Source of the DNA: Psychrobacter sp. JCM 18902
Lineage (GTDB): Bacteria; Pseudomonadota; Gammaproteobacteria; Pseudomonadales; Moraxellaceae
Direction of reading: 5' to 3'
NCBI RefSeq assembly: GCF_904846615.1
Contig: NZ_CAJHBK010000001.1
Span: 2,170,001 to 2,234,000, forward strand
DNA length: 64,000 bases
Every line of letters starts with the position of its first letter. Positions within the stretch are counted from its first letter, which is position 1. Made by a program: the position numbers and the translations under genes. The notes beneath the pieces are model-generated. The model worked only from the letters and a program-made list of their open reading frames with translations. It ran no database searches and was not told the DNA's origin. Shown piece by piece: positions 12,298 through 36,802 of the stretch.

Positions 12298-12376
12298 AAG
12301 CAAATGAATGGTATGACTCGATAATAAAAACAACACCGTGAATACAGCGACAGAATTATCTCTTGAGGATTTATAT

Positions 12377-13270
12377 ATGACAGTTTCAGACAACGACAGC
12401 CAAGGCTCGAGCGCCGCGCCAGCATTACCAGCATTGGCATTTTATGGCAAGATGCTGACTTTTTCACGTTTGCAATTTAGCACAGATGATTTAAGTGCGA
12501 TAGACGACCAGCTTGCCGCAACGCTTAGTAATAAATCTAGCAATATCCCTATCCTTATCGATAGCGAGGTTGAACAGGATCTCTCAGCATTGGTAGAGCT
12601 TTTATGGTCGTGGGGCTTACAACCTATTGGCGTCGTGACTGGCACACTAGATGCGCAAGCCCGTGAACAGCGATTGGCCATCTTCCCTGCTGATGGCAAA
12701 CGTATTGAGCGTATATTACCTAGCAAGAAAGCTGCAGCTCAAGTAAGCAAAGCTCCCGATGATAAACATACAGAATCAGCCAGTACCAATTCAGACAGTA
12801 CCAATTCAGACAGTACCAATTCAACCAGTAACAATTCAGACAGCACCAATGATACTGCAGCCATCAGCGAGTCAAACACAGAAACAACGATAGCAACCAC
12901 CACATCAGAGACATTGGTGAGCGCTGAGCATATTACCAGCCTAATTTACGATCAAATGCTACGTTCAGGACAAAGCCTAAATCACGTGGGCGGTGATTTG
13001 ATTTTGACCAATAGTGTCAATAGCGGGGCGGAAGCGATTACCGATAATAGCTTGCACGTTTACGGTCGTGCCCAAGGTCGCTTGGTTGCTGGCGCTACTG
13101 GTGACAAAGATGCTCGTATTTTTTGTCAAGTTTTTAACCCTTCTTTGGTGTCAGTAGCGGGAACTTATTGCTTACGAGACAACTTACCTGAGCACGTGAT
13201 TGACAAATCTGTACAAGTAAGATTTGTAGAAGGTGAAGGCTTAGTATTTACGGTAATGGATGACGCTTAA
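12377..13270 (+). CDS. minC: Septum site-determining protein MinC
   Basis: 297 residues. MinC inhibits FtsZ ring assembly away from midcell and is recruited to the membrane by MinD. The N-terminal FtsZ-binding domain occupies about 1-115. The C-terminal right-handed beta-helix domain that binds MinD and dimerises occupies about 190-297; visible motifs are LRSGQSLNHVGGDLIL, then VYGRAQGRLVAGATGDKDAR and IFCQVFNPSLVSVAG. Between them is a Ser/Thr/Asn-rich linker of about 75 residues, much longer than in E. coli MinC (231 residues in all), made partly by a 15-bp tandem repeat. The start is the ATG at 12377, 7 bp from GAGGA. minD follows after an unusually long 451-bp gap. Confidence 0.92.
   Translation: MTVSDNDSQGSSAAPALPALAFYGKMLTFSRLQFSTDDLSAIDDQLAATLSNKSSNIPILIDSEVEQDLSALVELLWSWGLQPIGVVTGTLDAQAREQRLAIFPADGKRIERILPSKKAAAQVSKAPDDKHTESASTNSDSTNSDSTNSTSNNSDSTNDTAAISESNTETTIATTTSETLVSAEHITSLIYDQMLRSGQSLNHVGGDLILTNSVNSGAEAITDNSLHVYGRAQGRLVAGATGDKDARIFCQVFNPSLVSVAGTYCLRDNLPEHVIDKSVQVRFVEGEGLVFTVMDDA
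12781..12855 (+). repeat. 15-bp tandem repeat inside minC (five units)
   Basis: Five adjacent 15-bp units, the first two identical (CAGTACCAATTCAGA) and the next three diverged by a few bases. The array encodes repeated Ser-Thr-Asn-Ser-Asp in the interdomain linker. A whole-codon period keeps the frame open when copy number changes. Confidence 0.9.
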
Positions 13271-28978: not shown

Positions 28979-30292
28979 ATGACTACTATGGTGACTGCTA
29001 TGACGGCTTCTAAATTTTTAAAAAATAGCACCTATCTACTGAGTGCTTTTCTTCTTGCTGCCTGTCAGCCATCACCGCCTACCAATGAGCCTGTGACTGC
29101 AGAAAACAGTGAGACTGTAGATACCCCTATTGTCATTACCGACGATAGTGTGACCATGACGCCAGATCATATATTAAGCATAAAACCTTCACGTTATCAG
29201 CCTAGCCTTGGTTTACAAGGTAAGATCGAACCTATCAAACAGACTAAGCTTATCGCTGCATACCCCATTAACGTCGAAGAAATACTGGTTACTGAGGGTC
29301 AATGGGTAGAAAAAGATATGCCGCTGCTTATTGTTCGACGCGTGCAATCAGAAAGCAAAACAGTAGATGCATCCAACCCAGCCAAGGAGCAATCTTCGGC
29401 ATCGAACAGCGTTGCCCCAGATTCTGAGATGACGAACGATGCGGTTGATGTAAAGCAAACACACTCACAAAAAACGGACGCTAGCTCAAAACCCAATCAA
29501 CCTACAGCAGAAAATGGTGCAACAACCACTAAAAACGATCCAATTGCTAACAAAGAAGAGGCAGCAGCAAAAGCCACAGTGGGCGCTCCTAAAAACGCAG
29601 TCGGCAATCCTAAAAACAATGACCAAACCAGCGCTAATAGCACGGCGAGCTCAAAACCGCAGCAGAATCAGTATAATTTGATCACTGTGCGTGCCAGTTT
29701 TTCTGGCCGTGTAAAAAACTTATATGCCAAAGCAGGTCAAAGACTAGAGGCGCGCACGCCTTTATTACAGATTAGCGATGAAACTAAATTACACTTTATC
29801 GCGACCCTACCTATTCAAGCAGAACCGCAACTTTCGGTTGGTCAGACTGTCAATTTTACAGCTGAAGGTATGTCGGAACAGTTCACAGGACAAGTCAGTA
29901 AACTGACCGCGACCAGCCAGCCAAAAAAGCTGTTGGTCTATGTTAACGTCATTGACAATGAAGCAAGTCGAGACAAGTTATTGCCAGATATGAAAGTCAC
30001 GGGGCGGGTTAATTATGGTCAAATAGATGTGGGCACTATCGTACCTAAGCGCGCGTTGCACGATGTTGACTTGACAGAATTACAAACGTCACCATATAAG
30101 CCTCTGTCACCGTTGACTGCTAACGTGTGGATTATTGGACAGGATCAGCGCCTGACACGCCAGCCTATTGAAGTAGTCGAATATGACCCTATCACAAAGC
30201 AGTATTTAATTGCAGGTATTAGCAACGACAGTTTGATTTGTTTGGCTGATTTACCGGCTGATGCTAAAGGTAAAAAAGTCAATGTCTCATAG
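28979..30292 (+). CDS. RND-type membrane-fusion (periplasmic adaptor) lipoprotein
   Basis: 437 residues. Lipobox LLAAC gives C29 as the lipidated cysteine. The lipoyl/barrel core of HlyD/AcrA-type adaptors is recognisable: first half at about 75-118 (LGLQGKIEPIKQTKLIA, then VTEGQWVEKDMPLL), second half at about 232-270 (TVRASFSGRVKNLYAKAGQRLE, quoted to its first residues only), then the barrel and membrane-proximal domain. The alpha-helical hairpin normally between the halves is replaced by about 110 residues (121-230) rich in Ser, Asn, Lys and Thr. No inner-membrane pump or outer-membrane channel gene is adjacent; a two-component system follows. It may serve a pump encoded elsewhere. The start codon is uncertain. 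Confidence 0.75.
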   Translation: MTTMVTAMTASKFLKNSTYLLSAFLLAACQPSPPTNEPVTAENSETVDTPIVITDDSVTMTPDHILSIKPSRYQPSLGLQGKIEPIKQTKLIAAYPINVEEILVTEGQWVEKDMPLLIVRRVQSESKTVDASNPAKEQSSASNSVAPDSEMTNDAVDVKQTHSQKTDASSKPNQPTAENGATTTKNDPIANKEEAAAKATVGAPKNAVGNPKNNDQTSANSTASSKPQQNQYNLITVRASFSGRVKNLYAKAGQRLEARTPLLQISDETKLHFIATLPIQAEPQLSVGQTVNFTAEGMSEQFTGQVSKLTATSQPKKLLVYVNVIDNEASRDKLLPDMKVTGRVNYGQIDVGTIVPKRALHDVDLTELQTSPYKPLSPLTANVWIIGQDQRLTRQPIEVVEYDPITKQYLIAGISNDSLICLADLPADAKGKKVNVS

Positions 30293-30589
30293 CTATGCAT
30301 GCCGACAGTTACATTGTGTAGAAACATTAACAAAGCCTCTCTTGTTTTGTAACTGCGTAATTAGGCAATATGACCGTATAATATATAGCATGAACCGAGT
30401 ATTATGAATCATTGGTATTAAATGACTCAATATCTTGAAAGTTTGAGAAATCTTAGAAAGTTTGAGAACCTAGAGGCTTAATCGTTTAACTGTTTAAAAT
30501 CCTAAAATCAGCGATGTATTTATCGTGATACAAAATATCAAAACAGATGAAACGTTTGGCCAACCATAACAACAACTAGAGGATAACCC

Positions 30590-31312
30590 ATGAGCAAGCA
30601 GATTTTATTAATCGAAGATGATCCTGATCTAGCTGAGTTAATCAGCGATTACCTGACCATGAATTATTATGACGTCCATCATGCAGGGCTTGGTCAAGAA
30701 GGGCTTGATTTATTGGACGCCAAAGAGCGTGACATTGATTTGGTCGTGCTTGACTTAATGCTGCCTGACATGGATGGTATGCAAGTTTGTCAAAAAATTC
30801 GCGGCAATAAAAACAACATGACCAATAAAGTGCCAATTATCATGTTGACAGCGAAAGGTGATACCACCGATCGCGTGCTAGGTCTTGAGATGGGTGCTGA
30901 CGATTATATATCTAAGCCTTTTGAGCCACGCGAGCTTCTCGCTCGAATCCGTGCTGTTATTCGCCGTCATGAGCAGCCCAATCAAGCAGATAGCCAGTCT
31001 GACAGCTTGACCTTTGGTCGTTTGAGTGTCTTTCCTGATAGCCATGAAGTGACCATCGACGATGAGCCTGTTCGTTTAACGACGCATCAGTTTCAATTAT
31101 TGCATTACTTTGCCACCCATTCTGGTAAAGTATTGAATCGCGAGCAACTGTGGCAAGCCATGCCTAATGATGACAGCTCAGATAATATCGATCGCGCCAT
31201 TGATGTTCATATCTCGCGCCTGCGTGCTTTAATTGAAGACAACCCACGCCAGCCAAAACGTATTATTACCGTACGCGGTGTTGGTTATCAATTTGCCACT
31301 GATCAAGTTTGA
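30590..31312 (+). CDS. OmpR-family response regulator
   Basis: 240 residues: a receiver domain (1-120) with acidic pair E9-D10-D11, phospho-acceptor D55 in LVVLDLMLPDMDG and lysine in DDYISKPFEPREL; and a C-terminal winged helix (about 140-238) with LTTHQFQLLHYFATHSGKVL and the recognition helix region IDRAIDVHISRLRALIED. It should bind promoter DNA after phosphorylation by the kinase encoded 102 bp downstream. It resembles RstA/BfmR-type regulators, but the regulon cannot be read from sequence. The ribosome site (AGAGGATAACCC) is good. Confidence 0.92.
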   Translation: MSKQILLIEDDPDLAELISDYLTMNYYDVHHAGLGQEGLDLLDAKERDIDLVVLDLMLPDMDGMQVCQKIRGNKNNMTNKVPIIMLTAKGDTTDRVLGLEMGADDYISKPFEPRELLARIRAVIRRHEQPNQADSQSDSLTFGRLSVFPDSHEVTIDDEPVRLTTHQFQLLHYFATHSGKVLNREQLWQAMPNDDSSDNIDRAIDVHISRLRALIEDNPRQPKRIITVRGVGYQFATDQV

Positions 31313-31414: not shown

Positions 31415-33604
31415 ATGCAGCAGTTGGGATTTCGTTCGGTATTTGCCAAGTTATTTGCCAGTGTCATGCTGGCACTTATTTTATTTGCAGTGGCGATGGT
31501 GCTGTTGACGCAACTTGTGCATGATAAAGATGCAAGTATTCGATCAGAAGTATTGGCCACCCAGATTTTAGGACAAATAGACCCCTTCTTGCATGAGCTG
31601 AATATCTCTGTTAGTGAGGACAATCGCTTGCAAGCGCGCTTTATGCTAGCAGTGGTCAAAAAGAGCTTTGATATCTTTGATGAGTCATTACAGGCAAAGA
31701 TGGGCTTGTATGACAGCGAAGGTCGATTGCTAATGCAAACGGATAACAGCGATTTGCCATTGGAGTTGCCCGCACCGCCCTCTTTATTTTCACGCGTTTT
31801 TCCCTCTCTCGCAGACACCTCCCCTACCAAGCAAGCTCAGGTTTATAGCAGCACCGGCTATACGCTTTTGTATGAATCACGCTTACCGCCTAAAAAACCA
31901 GTACTCTCTTCTGCGCTGAATTTATTTACTGGCACACTACTACTGTTACTTATTATGGCAGGTGTCCTATGGTGGATTGCTCGTACCATCACTTGGCGCA
32001 TCAATCAGATGAGCCAGCAGATGGCGCAACTGGGTGATGGTGATTTTACCGTACGGGTGAATGCTCGTGGTAACGATGAGATCGCCTCACTAGCGCGTGG
32101 ATTTAACCAAGCAGCACAAAAAATTGAACACCTTATCGATGCCAATAACCTGCTCTTAGCACATGCTTCTCACGAGCTACGTACCCCAATTACTCGTATC
32201 CGCTTACAGATTGAGATGATGGATATGCTCGCAGGAGCGCTACCATCTGATACCAAAGCAAAGTTTGATAAACGTGCGCAAGCGATTAACCGCGATTTGT
32301 CAGGGCTCAATGATTTGGTAGAGAGTATCTTATTGGTGAGTCGTTTAGACGCCGGTCATGCCTTGCAGCAAGTTGAAAGTTTAGATTTATACGATCTGGT
32401 GAATCAAGAACGGCAACATTATCCTGAAGCGACGCTCATTGGTGAACATATTGTGATCGATGGTCAATCATCGATGTTGACCCATTTAATTCGCAACTTG
32501 TTAACCAATGCCATGCTACACGGCAAGCCACCCGTGACGGTACTATTGTATGGTGTGCAAACTATTGATGAAGCAGATACCATACCTAATTACCTGCTAC
32601 AAACGATACTCTGCAGTAGCTTTGCCGATTATAATAGCTCTGATTTTGACTCCTATCACGAACCAATCGAGGTTAATGAAGACAATACGCATAATCATAT
32701 TGCGCATAGTCATACACACTCAAACGATTCTTCTCATAGTACTGGTAAAGTTAAATCTGAAGCAACGGATGCTATTATCGTGTTGCCAGCACCACCGATA
32801 TATAGAAACGGAGAAAATATTGCGGTTGAGCATGATCTCAATTCCGATATTGATACCGATACCGATACCAATGTAAATATAGAGACTAAAATAGATAAGG
32901 CTGATATTAATAATATCAACGGAGACATTGACTCTATTGAGACCTGTGCGACAACAGAATCTACTGATGCGAATAGTGTTCAAACTGACGCAAGTACTTC
33001 GGCAAACTCAGTCAACAGTAACGATACCGTTGGAAGCACCAGTGCATCCTCATTGATTGCTAATTATCATAACTTTACCAATGATTTGACTGACAAAATT
33101 AAAAAAATGGTTTGGAAAGCAGTTCCTGACACTGAAGAGCCGTCTGCAGTTATCAATGACGCTAAGAGTACAGCCTTGAATGATGCAACTCCTAAATCCA
33201 AAGGCGCCATAACAAATAAAGGTGGCAATACACGCGATAAGGTTGATGCTCAAAACAACACTCAAAATCCTACGGAAGTACTCAGTACACCGCGCAAAGA
33301 AGGCTTGTTTGCCAAGCATCTCAAAAAAGCCAAGACCGATCCTGTACGCCCATTACCGAAATATGCAGTATTGGCAGTGATTGATGAAGGCACGGGTATT
33401 CCAGAAGACAAACGTGAAGAAGTATTTAGTCCATTTGTGCGGTTGCAACAAAAAAATAAAGGCTCTGGACTAGGCTTATCGCTAGTATCACAAATCGTTA
33501 CCGCCCATCAAGGGCGCATCATTACTGATACGTTGAATGGACATACCAGGTTTTTAGTTGTCATACCAGTCAAGCACGACCCACATTATCACCAACATGA
33601 CTAG
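31415..33604 (+). CDS. Sensor histidine kinase with a very large insert in its ATPase domain
   Basis: 729 residues. TM1 about 12-34, periplasmic region about 35-165, TM2 about 168-188, HAMP about 190-243, phospho-histidine H253 in AHASHELRTPITR, N box IRNLLTNAMLHG (N361, N365). Then follow about 265 residues (381-647) of low-complexity sequence, with a His-rich part HNHIAHSHTHS, an Asp/Thr/Asn-rich part IDTDTDTNVNIE and a Lys/Asn-rich part. After it the ATPase fold resumes with VIDEGTGIPE (D657), FSPF and GSGLGL (683-688). In ordinary kinases N box and glycine box are about 20-35 residues apart. All catalytic motifs are kept, so it may be active. The TAG stop is the first three bases of a dispersed repeat. 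Confidence 0.9.
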   Translation: MQQLGFRSVFAKLFASVMLALILFAVAMVLLTQLVHDKDASIRSEVLATQILGQIDPFLHELNISVSEDNRLQARFMLAVVKKSFDIFDESLQAKMGLYDSEGRLLMQTDNSDLPLELPAPPSLFSRVFPSLADTSPTKQAQVYSSTGYTLLYESRLPPKKPVLSSALNLFTGTLLLLLIMAGVLWWIARTITWRINQMSQQMAQLGDGDFTVRVNARGNDEIASLARGFNQAAQKIEHLIDANNLLLAHASHELRTPITRIRLQIEMMDMLAGALPSDTKAKFDKRAQAINRDLSGLNDLVESILLVSRLDAGHALQQVESLDLYDLVNQERQHYPEATLIGEHIVIDGQSSMLTHLIRNLLTNAMLHGKPPVTVLLYGVQTIDEADTIPNYLLQTILCSSFADYNSSDFDSYHEPIEVNEDNTHNHIAHSHTHSNDSSHSTGKVKSEATDAIIVLPAPPIYRNGENIAVEHDLNSDIDTDTDTNVNIETKIDKADINNINGDIDSIETCATTESTDANSVQTDASTSANSVNSNDTVGSTSASSLIANYHNFTNDLTDKIKKMVWKAVPDTEEPSAVINDAKSTALNDATPKSKGAITNKGGNTRDKVDAQNNTQNPTEVLSTPRKEGLFAKHLKKAKTDPVRPLPKYAVLAVIDEGTGIPEDKREEVFSPFVRLQQKNKGSGLGLSLVSQIVTAHQGRIITDTLNGHTRFLVVIPVKHDPHYHQHD

Positions 33605-33893: not shown

Positions 33894-34147
33894 TAAGGTG
33901 CTATGAACAGACACTTCATTCTACTCGATCGTCGCGACTCACATTCTACAAAACCCCTCTTACTAATAGCTATTAATCATAAGCCTGTCACGGATGTTCA
34001 TATCCAAAGTGCTCGATAATATGCTATATTAGCGCCCCTTATTATAGGGTTATTAACGGTTGTTTCTTAATTGGCTTCTTACATTGTTAAAGAGGCCCGA
34101 CAGCGCGTTTGTGACTATTAAAAAAATTATTGAATTTTGAGCCCTCC
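33894..34147. other. Upstream region of metN
   Basis: About 250 bp before metN with no gene. A short inverted motif CCCCTTATTATAGGG lies near 34035. No SAM or other riboswitch was recognised, and the metN start has no clear ribosome site. Confidence 0.4.
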
Positions 34148-34918
34148 ATGAATGACATGATTGTCTTAAACAATGTGACCAAGAGTTTTTTAAGCGACCG
34201 ATCAATCAAAGACAAAGATGGCAAACCACATTGGTTTACTGCCGTTGAACCGACCTCGTTATCTGTCCAGCAAGGCGAAATCTTCGGCCTAATGGGATAC
34301 TCGGGTGCCGGTAAGTCTACTTTGCTACGCCTAATCAATATGCTTGAGCGTCCAGATGCCGGTCAAGTCATCGTCGATGGCACCGACTTGACCACATTGT
34401 CTGCCAGTGAATTGCGTATCGCTCGGCATAATATTGGTATGATTTTTCAGCAATTCAACCTGATGTCCAATCGTACTGTTTTTGACAACGTGGCCTTTAA
34501 TTTAACCGTTTCAGGATATCCGAGCCGCGACATTCATAAACGAGTGATGGATTGCCTAGAGATTGTTGATCTAACAGACCGTGCTGGTCACTACCCTGCG
34601 CAGCTGTCAGGCGGACAAAAACAGCGTGTCGGTATTGCCCGAGCGATTGCCCCCAGTCCTAAAGTATTATTGGCTGATGAGCCAACCAGTGCGCTTGATC
34701 CTGCGACGACCCGCAGCTTGTTGACTTGTCTACGTGATATCAACGAACAACTTGGCGTCACCATTGTGATTGTGACTCATGAGATGAGTGTCATCCGTAG
34801 GCTGTGTGATCGCGCCGCATTACTGCATCAAGGTCAACTCTTGGAAGTTGCGGATGTGAGAGACGGTCTGATTCAAGCGACCACCCCGATTGGCAAAGGC
34901 TTAGTGCACGAAGACTAA
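34148..34918 (+). CDS. metN: MetN-like methionine ABC transporter ATPase, short form
   Basis: 257 residues from ATG 34148 (ATG 34157 is also possible; a TTG at 34130 is less likely). ABC ATPase motifs: Walker A GYSGAGKST, Q loop in MIFQQFNLM, signature LSGGQKQRVGIARA, Walker B VLLADEPTSALDP and the switch histidine in IVIVTHEMSVI. It should power methionine uptake with the following permease and binding protein. E. coli MetN is 343 residues and ends in a regulatory NIL/ACT-like domain; this protein stops right after the ATPase, so feedback inhibition by internal methionine is probably lost. Identity as MetN comes from context and the N-terminal domain. Confidence 0.85.
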   Translation: MNDMIVLNNVTKSFLSDRSIKDKDGKPHWFTAVEPTSLSVQQGEIFGLMGYSGAGKSTLLRLINMLERPDAGQVIVDGTDLTTLSASELRIARHNIGMIFQQFNLMSNRTVFDNVAFNLTVSGYPSRDIHKRVMDCLEIVDLTDRAGHYPAQLSGGQKQRVGIARAIAPSPKVLLADEPTSALDPATTRSLLTCLRDINEQLGVTIVIVTHEMSVIRRLCDRAALLHQGQLLEVADVRDGLIQATTPIGKGLVHED

Positions 34919-34937
34919 TGAGGCAGGAGAAATAAAT

Positions 34938-35624
34938 ATGTTAACTGGTAGTGAATTATCCGCCTCGATAGATAAGCTGTTTGCCCTGCGCAAAGAGATT
35001 GTGAACGCGTTTATTGATACATTTATTATGCTTGGCATCTCAACGACGGTGGCGATTGTCATCGGTGGGTTGTTTGGCGTATTTTTGTTTTTATCCAGTG
35101 ATCGACAGTTTTTGCAAAACAAAACATTGTATGGTCTGCTTGGTGGTATCACCAACTTTATGCGCGCCTTTCCATTTGTCATTTTGATGATTGCCATGAG
35201 CCCATTTACGAAGGCTATCGTTGGCACAGGTATTGGACCGATTGCGGCCTCATTGGTACTCGCCATTGCAGGTTCGTTTTATTTTGCCCGTTTGGTCGAG
35301 CAAAACTTACGCGAAGTGCCACGCGGCATCATTGAGGCGACCGAATCTATGGGCGCACGTCCACTGACCATTATTAAAGTTTTACTCAATGAAGCACGCT
35401 CAGGACTGGTATTGTCCGTGACGATTCTCTGTATCAGCCTGCTCTCTTATTCAGCAGCGGCGGGTATGATTGGCGGCGGTGGTCTGGGGGATTTAGCCAT
35501 TCGTTATGGCTACTATCGTTATCAAACGGAGGTAATGATTTTTATCGTTATTGTCCTATCAATAATGGTCGTCTCCATTCAAGCATCGGGTAATTGGTTG
35601 GCTAACCGTTTGGATAAACGATAG
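34938..35624 (+). CDS. metI: MetI-like methionine ABC transporter permease
   Basis: 228-residue inner-membrane permease with about five membrane helices. The EAA loop that contacts the ATPase is visible as EVPRGIIEATESMGARPLTI. Other family motifs are NFMRAFPFVILMIAMSPFTK and GGGGLGDLAIRYGYYRYQ. It lies 19 bp after metN with an AGGAGAAATAA ribosome site, and is probably co-transcribed with it and metQ. It transports methionine (L or D) delivered by the downstream lipoprotein. Confidence 0.92.
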   Translation: MLTGSELSASIDKLFALRKEIVNAFIDTFIMLGISTTVAIVIGGLFGVFLFLSSDRQFLQNKTLYGLLGGITNFMRAFPFVILMIAMSPFTKAIVGTGIGPIAASLVLAIAGSFYFARLVEQNLREVPRGIIEATESMGARPLTIIKVLLNEARSGLVLSVTILCISLLSYSAAAGMIGGGGLGDLAIRYGYYRYQTEVMIFIVIVLSIMVVSIQASGNWLANRLDKR

Positions 35625-35842
35625 AAAAAAGACTTAGACAAAGCCAGTTAACGCTAATATGAATAATACTCAGGGTTTAATGCCGATTCATCCTAAGCAA
35701 AATGCTTGACTTTGTTACTGAGACCCTTTAATTTTGATACTAACTTAACAGTCGTTAACTTAGCAGCATTACTATCCCTAATGTTGCTTTTTTAATGGCC
35801 AGCGTTTGCCCTCCATCCCATCCCTCTTATTAAGGAAGCTCC

Positions 35843-36802
35843 ATGAAATTAACAGATATCAGCCGTCAGTTAGCAACTGCATTTGCTGCCGTTGGCGTAT
35901 CAAGCCTAGTCTTGGTTGGTTGCAACAACTCATCAGCACCAGAAGCAACTAAAGAGCCTGTTACGGAAGGCTCAACAGCAGAGACTGCCGCTAGCGATAT
36001 CGATCCTGAGCATACAAAAATCGTCATCGGTACCACCGAAGGTGACTTCGCCGATATGGTGCGCAACCAAGTGAAAAGCTCACTGGAAGCGCAAGGTTAC
36101 GAAGTTGAGCTGATTGCTTTTACTGACTATGTACGCCCAAACCTTGCCTTGGCTGAAGGTGATTTGGACATCAACATCTTCCAGCATAAGCCTTATCTTG
36201 ATACCTTCAAAAAAGAAAACAATCTTGATCTGGTAGAAGTTTTCCAAGTACCTACTGCTCCACTTGGCATTTACTCAGGTAAAAAGACCACGCTTGATGA
36301 TGTCTATAAAGGCATGAGAGTCTCTGCCCCAAATGATCCAAGTAACTTTGCTCGTGCGCTGGTGATGATGGATGATCTTGGCTGGATCACGCTAAAAGAC
36401 AATATTGACCCACTAACGGCATCAAAAACTGACATCGCTGATAACAGCAAATACGATATTGAAATCATTGAGTTAGAAGCCGCTCAATTGCCACGTGCTC
36501 GTGATGAAGTCGACTTCGCCGTCATCAATGGCAACTATGCCACGGATGCTGGTATCAAGCTGACTGAAGCGCTATTTCAAGAGCCTAGCTTTGCTTATGT
36601 CAACTGGTCAGCCATCAAATCAGCAGATGCTGGCAAAAAATGGGTCGAAGATGTGACCAATGCATATAATTCAGAAGCCTTTAAAAAGTATGCTCATGAA
36701 ACTTTCCCTGGTTATAAGTACCCAAAAATCTGGGGCTCTGATCACAGTGCGCACACGGATACCGCAACAAAACCTGCACCTGTAGAAGCGGCTGCTCAAT
36801 AA
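35843..36802 (+). CDS. metQ: MetQ-like methionine-binding lipoprotein
   Basis: 319 residues of the NlpA/MetQ family. Lipobox LVLVGC, then an Ala/Thr/Glu-rich linker and the binding domain from about 50 to 300, with the signature IVIGTTEGDFADMV and LAEGDLDINIFQHKPYLD. The pair DEVDFAVINGNYATDAG is the family ligand-contact region. It captures methionine in the periplasm and passes it to MetNI. A 218-bp gap after metI may contain its own promoter. An intrinsic terminator follows about 47 bp after the stop, closing the metNIQ unit. Confidence 0.92.
   Translation: MKLTDISRQLATAFAAVGVSSLVLVGCNNSSAPEATKEPVTEGSTAETAASDIDPEHTKIVIGTTEGDFADMVRNQVKSSLEAQGYEVELIAFTDYVRPNLALAEGDLDINIFQHKPYLDTFKKENNLDLVEVFQVPTAPLGIYSGKKTTLDDVYKGMRVSAPNDPSNFARALVMMDDLGWITLKDNIDPLTASKTDIADNSKYDIEIIELEAAQLPRARDEVDFAVINGNYATDAGIKLTEALFQEPSFAYVNWSAIKSADAGKKWVEDVTNAYNSEAFKKYAHETFPGYKYPKIWGSDHSAHTDTATKPAPVEAAAQ

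Follow-up and report, generated by a model that had tools for sequence, protein, structure and literature searches.

A conserved arm nested within the ATP-binding domain of a sensor histidine kinase from Psychrobacter

The open frame at 31415-33604 of a 64,000-nucleotide stretch of DNA from Psychrobacter sp. JCM 18902 (the window) encodes a sensor histidine kinase of 729 residues (HAMP, HisKA and HATPase_c), in which a conserved insert is nested within the catalytic and ATP-binding (CA) domain. On alignment of orthologues, the insert comprises approximately residues 383-649 (32561-33361; all features of the kinase and of its adjoining regulator lie on the + strand), and it was present in 79 of 79 distinct aligned orthologues with lengths of 47-301 residues, taken as the stretch between window-protein residues 380 and 650. 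As every sampled orthologue from Psychrobacter and Moraxella carries such an insert, in which a few spots and the charge pattern are preserved, the insert looks functional rather than decayed, and conservation and selection suggest that it is probably a constrained regulatory arm on an active kinase.

Domains were assigned with Pfam, with bit scores above the respective cut-offs in all cases: HAMP at residues 187-238 (31973-32128; 52.1 versus 25), HisKA/DHp at residues 244-314 (32144-32356; 44.0 versus 26.9) and HATPase_c (56.8 versus 26.4). The HATPase_c profile aligned to residues 649-720 only (profile positions 36-110), because the insert cuts off the N-box half; domain models can miss half of a domain split in this way. 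The N-box helix was located at residues 352-370 (32468-32524) in the structure model, and the G1 box DEGTGI (residues 657-662, 33383-33400) and G2 box GSGLGLS (residues 683-689, 33461-33481) by motif and alignment. In the 67 aligned sequences, H253 within HASHELRTP and residues N361, N365, D657, G659, G661, G683, G685 and G687 are invariant. Ratios of non-synonymous to synonymous substitution (dN/dS; Nei-Gojobori counts, 11 close pairs pooled) were 0.033 and 0.028 for the core, which we infer from motifs and selection to be a working kinase. It looks membrane-anchored, with long N-terminal helices in the model, and its closest named homologue is from P. cibarius (98%).

The N-box Asn361 and the G1 Asp657 are 296 residues apart. 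A preliminary description, made from the letters of the DNA, had reported an ATPase domain split at this place by about 265 residues, with catalytic motifs intact and the frame open; these statements hold, as do the coordinates given there. For structure prediction, which it had proposed as a check, two AlphaFold models were obtained from overlapping alignments, one of the full-length protein and one of the CA part. In both, the insert exits at the tip of the β-hairpin that connects the N-box helix to the G1 box, with strand 1 at residues 374-381 (32534-32557) forming its N-terminal base and strand 2 at residues 650-657 (33362-33385) running into D657. It had been placed at the start of the ATP lid; this assignment has to be revised, as the lid is the stretch that joins G1 to G2, and its length is ordinary. 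The CA domain is modelled as a canonical Bergerat fold despite the insert.

For comparison within the genome, 27 HATPase_c matches were found and ten loci tried, including this kinase; in two of these the G1 pattern and in one the N-box pattern found no match, and the six other readable kinases had N-box-to-G1 spacings of 27, 30, 32, 37, 54 and 74. In two other proteins of the genome, the HATPase_c matches are split by 114-117 bp, far below the insert described here.

The insert is rich in Asp/Glu and Asn/Ser/Thr and contains, as previously described, a His-rich patch (residues 426-441, 32690-32737), which is confined to this species and its nearest relatives, and an Asp-Thr micro-repeat (residues 478-485, 32846-32869), which differs in a close relative. 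No known domain was found in it by Pfam above cut-off (two matches, E 0.18 and 0.28, are at chance level), and a search of PDB sequences gave no match up to E 1. Most of it is modelled as disordered. At its start, helices at residues 384-388 and 392-401/407 are present in both models, with a pLDDT (predicted local distance difference test) for the block 381-400 of 86-92 in the full model and 89-95 in the CA model, falling to about 50 beyond. A small hairpin (462-464/467-469) is likewise present in both, the block 461-470 having a pLDDT of 89 and 92. With a confident helical piece and a β-hairpin, the arm is not wholly of low complexity. Structure searches, whether with the whole model or the CA part, returned match lists filled by kinase CA domains and therefore say nothing on the fold of the arm itself.

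Along the insert, column conservation is near zero in parts of the linkers and rises at residues 384-415, 456-470, 546-572 and 625-649, and these islands correct the earlier view of the insert as low-complexity sequence throughout. Island M1 (IPxYLLQTxLCSSFxDYNSxD; residues 384-415, 32564-32659; dN/dS 0.10) covers the modelled helices, and the island PAPPIYRNGENI (residues 456-470, 32780-32824; dN/dS 0.15) the modelled β-hairpin. Island M2 (FTxDLTDKIKKxxWKAVP; residues 546-572, 33050-33130; dN/dS 0.19) is a predicted amphipathic helix, and island M3 (RKEGLFAKHLKKAKxxPxRPLPK; residues 625-649, 33287-33361; dN/dS 0.11) is basic. The value for the whole insert is 0.32, that for the low-complexity part 416-545 is 0.44 (including the PAPPIY island, 456-470) and that for the last linker 0.35. 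As dS was 0.19-0.37 across all parts of the kinase, these differences stem mainly from dN. Conserved islands on acidic, fast-changing linkers are as expected of a tether with docking spots.

P391, L394 and K640 are kept in at least 90% of the 67 aligned sequences, and P..L near the insert start was found in 74 of the 79 distinct orthologues. YxNG of the hairpin island occurs in 45/79, all Psychrobacter; in the database homologues listed, which had been selected as close relatives, it occurs in 120/120 and the K[KR]..W motif in 119/120. A Trp anywhere in the insert was found in 42/45 Psychrobacter proper, 0/8 other Psychrobacter and 1/26 Moraxella-type forms; that of the window protein sits in basic, not acidic, surroundings. 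Of the 72 orthologues in which the insert is long enough for a body to be defined, 70 have an acidic body, and a net positive charge was found on the last 28 insert residues in 79/79. Four stretches were tried for amphipathicity, and M2 was amphipathic relative to shuffled versions (median p 0.028, 48 sequences; M2 core 0.046, 44 sequences).

A search of 57 genomes matched the kinase in all 36 of the window's genus (its own included) at E 1.2e-156 or better, and the listed matches from that genus contain no internal stop codon. When 119 genomes sampled across the family were searched with the first 382 kinase residues, a close relative (E < 1e-130) was found in 52, namely in 26/26 of the window's genus and in 21/22 and 5/6 of the Moraxella-type genera g31 and g28 (e.g. 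M. bovoculi, M. catarrhalis, M. lacunata; M. boevrei, M. macacae), and in 0/65 genomes of 13 other genera of the family. These 52 genomes also contain a close relative (E < 1e-120) of the OmpR-type response regulator encoded next to the kinase (240 residues, 30590-31312; profile matches). This regulator adjoins the kinase in 38 of the 40 loci fetched (exceptions are L074, cut by a contig end, and L098) and is taken as the cognate partner. In two genomes of otherwise positive genera, G106 (g31) and G077 (g28), neither member of the pair had a close relative; for G106 no candidate at all was obtained for either protein, which may be a data matter.

By length, the insert comprises 47-114 residues in 26 Moraxella-type forms, the short ones (47-49 in some Moraxella), 122-207 in eight Psychrobacter, including P. 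lutiphocae and P. pasteurii, and 150-301 in 45 Psychrobacter proper. In a named-collection scan with two short peptide patterns, by which other relatives may be missed, all 38 Moraxella/Psychrobacter-type loci had an N-box-to-G1 spacing of 74-287, and the 12 readable of 39 outside loci one of 30-46. The N-box pattern missed the remaining 27, of which four were inspected; these have another residue in place of the motif's first Asn and, by eye, a short spacing. The best outside kinases (Iodobacter, Janthinobacterium and a LacPavin metagenome-assembled genome; L233-L236) share 28-33% identity with this kinase but have a spacing of 30 and no insert. Because all Moraxella/Psychrobacter-type loci are long-spaced and the readable outside loci are not, Psychrobacter and the Moraxella-type genera probably inherited the insert from a common ancestor that had gained it. 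The long arms may have come from short ones.

The orthologue comparison was likewise one of the proposed checks, and orthologues without the insert, which had been associated with a degenerating gene, were not seen. Gene decay was rejected on this ground, together with the core dN/dS of 0.03 and the absence of stops from the listed same-genus matches. One short database homologue that seemed insert-less, P0020 (575 residues), proved to be an N-terminally cut protein with a full insert; P0011 (655 residues) misses a TM2-HAMP stretch and has the insert. A record titled Streptomyces cinereus JCM 3040 (L229, BMPS01000011.1) encodes a Moraxella-type kinase, and its title is probably wrong.

While the position of the arm, its conservation, selection and charge pattern and the canonical CA fold of the model are computed results, its mode of action can be outlined as follows. 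The arm would have grown in this lineage from the tip of the N-box-G1 β-hairpin of an otherwise normal CA domain; since it exits and re-enters at one place, both halves of the domain could still fold together, and by hairpin topology its exit point would face away from the ATP lid. It would carry the short helical piece M1 near the base and the basic segment M3 at the other end, to which Psychrobacter proper would add the small β-hairpin (PIYRNGENI) and the amphipathic helix M2, mostly with a Trp. With variable acidic linkers between these islands, the arm may present docking spots on a flexible tether. Its likeliest partner would be the neighbouring OmpR-type regulator, although this assignment is tentative and draws on analogy. 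It is favoured because the disordered C-terminal tail of WalK from Streptococcus mutans, with a W-acidic motif whose Trp is key, is reported to bind the DNA-binding domain of WalR and to affect phosphotransfer and phosphatase activity (PMC9087282).

Several points weigh against this interpretation. Activity of the kinase and docking by the arm are both inferred. M2 and the basic part of M3 were modelled at low confidence, and pLDDT reports local confidence only. M1 and M3 were no more amphipathic than their shuffled versions (median p 0.84 and 0.28). The dN/dS values come from pairs that lack independence, and alignment of the linkers is difficult. The hairpin island is missing from the 26 Moraxella-type and 8 of the 53 Psychrobacter proteins and is therefore not needed for basic activity, and shrinkage in Moraxella is an alternative to growth in Psychrobacter. 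The WalK appendage is a C-terminal tail, whereas the arm is nested in the CA fold with several islands, and the Trp here lies among basic residues, unlike the W-acidic motif of WalK (PMC9087282).

To place the insert among other proteins, open reading frames of 400 kb of the genome and of the window were compared with 800 kb of one Moraxella-type genome, to which the locus of the kinase orthologue had been added on purpose. This yielded 97 reciprocal-best pairs, of which 8 with a best aligned piece below 80 bits were dropped, and only gaps within the aligned range were counted. Among the remaining 89 pairs, Psychrobacter-side internal insertions reached at least 30 residues in five, at least 50 in two and at least 100 in one. 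The last is this kinase (187 + 22 residues); the next largest insertion has 57 residues, and the unbiased part of the sample consists of the other 88 pairs. One further pair had a run of 162 residues on the Moraxella side, but seemingly joins two different proteins, which by eye are presumably tRNA synthetases for valine and for isoleucine, and the additional segment looks like a folded domain. The insert is thus unusual in this proteome sample, and a general swelling of Psychrobacter proteins was rejected (1/89 pairs).

The strongest rival to a regulatory arm is passive tolerance, in which a surface hairpin was swollen by repeat slippage and drift and only its ends are constrained, to spare the fold. 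Fast linkers (dN/dS 0.35-0.44), lengths that differ among near relatives within the total range of 47-301 residues and the divergence of the Asp-Thr repeat in a close strain all fit such a history, but constraint is also found on islands far from the ends (456-470 and 546-572), the YxNG and K[KR]..W motifs are kept in nearly all of the listed near relatives, and none of the other 88 sampled pairs has a Psychrobacter-side insertion above 57 residues. We consider passive tolerance unlikely.

Quite improbable is a membrane dock, in which the basic end and the amphipathic M2 would bind the surface of the inner membrane, keeping the CA domain either apart from the phospho-acceptor helix or close beside it. 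The apparent membrane anchoring of the kinase, the amphipathicity of M2 and the positive last 28 residues in all 79 orthologues are compatible with it; against this, M3 is not amphipathic beyond shuffles (p 0.28), M2 falls within a stretch that is absent from the Moraxella-type forms, and anionic lipids would repel the acidic body. A metal-sensing loop, raised in the preliminary description on account of five His within twelve residues of the window protein, is hardly credible and stays unsupported because the patch is found in the nearest relatives only (at least four His in twelve in 2/120 homologues and 2/79 distinct orthologues, all very close relatives) and lies in the fastest-evolving part (dN/dS 0.44), while the regulatory loop suggested alongside it fits the conserved islands.

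The arm nested in the CA domain of this histidine kinase is real and conserved. Diversification of histidine kinases is usually seen at their input end, with the CA domain regarded as invariable. A doubtful extension of the regulatory interpretation is that the ATP-binding fold itself gave rise to a multi-site arm which captures the regulator or works as some other kind of switch. If true, lengths from 47-49 residues in some Moraxella to 200-300 in most Psychrobacter would record module building within a catalytic domain, and most Psychrobacter arms would hold two added docking elements, built in rather than appended. As graded lengths and added islands occur naturally, living species offer material for testing what happens when regulatory parts are added within a catalytic fold. 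A survey of the open-licence literature found nothing on this kinase or its insert in titles or abstract openings.

Upstream of the regulator, a conserved non-coding block (30308-30371) carries GTTACA, 19 bp on TTAACAAAG, then TTGTTT and TTAGGCAATAT. It is common to many aligned Psychrobacter loci, with two more distant ones (L094, L095) having GTAACA...GTAACAAA, and looks like a putative direct-repeat site for an OmpR-type regulator, possibly serving autoregulation. Between the membrane-fusion gene and the regulator (30432-30468) lies an imperfect 19-bp direct repeat with GAAAGTTTGAGA; of 27 sequences aligned, only the window, L002 and L003 have both GAAAGTTT copies. The gene at 28979-30292 encodes a HlyD/RND-type membrane fusion protein whose start resembles that of a lipoprotein; by eye, some 110 residues of low complexity occupy the place where we would expect an α-hairpin. 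This gene was not among 14 pairs inspected in the proteome comparison. Downstream, genes for a MetN/MetI/MetQ-like transporter (34130-36802) have best scores below the NCBIfam cut-offs for all three proteins, the MetN-like protein having 262 residues against a 343-position model. In the 40 fetched loci, a membrane-fusion match was found upstream of the kinase/regulator pair in 23 and a MetN-like match in 18, and both were missing from the eight intermediate-insert loci of Psychrobacter; with fetched stretches of 3.6-7 kb, these absences partly reflect reach. Elsewhere in the window, the open reading frame at 12317-13267 contains five 15-bp repeats (12776-12850) coding for Ser-Asp-Ser-Thr-Asn units and a 35-residue internal insertion relative to its best Moraxella-type match.

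With regard to known systems, the pair resembles EnvZ/OmpR and RstB/RstA in having a HAMP-HisKA-HATPase_c kinase beside an OmpR/PhoB-type regulator. The best NCBIfam matches were EnvZ (125 bits) and, second, RstB (124 bits) for the kinase and OmpR (218 bits) for the regulator; unlike those systems, the pair scores far under the curated cut-offs (EnvZ 415, RstB 478, OmpR 331), none of which was reached by the kinase and regulator tested. A long insert separating N box and G1 is not known from EnvZ or RstB. In Sln1-type fungal histidine kinases, the kinase region is longer than usual, which serves as a lead only. WalK of S. mutans is reported to carry a disordered appendage with a conserved Trp, with which the arm and its Trp, found in most Psychrobacter proper, may be compared, and it offers a possible working model for the arm (PMC9087282).
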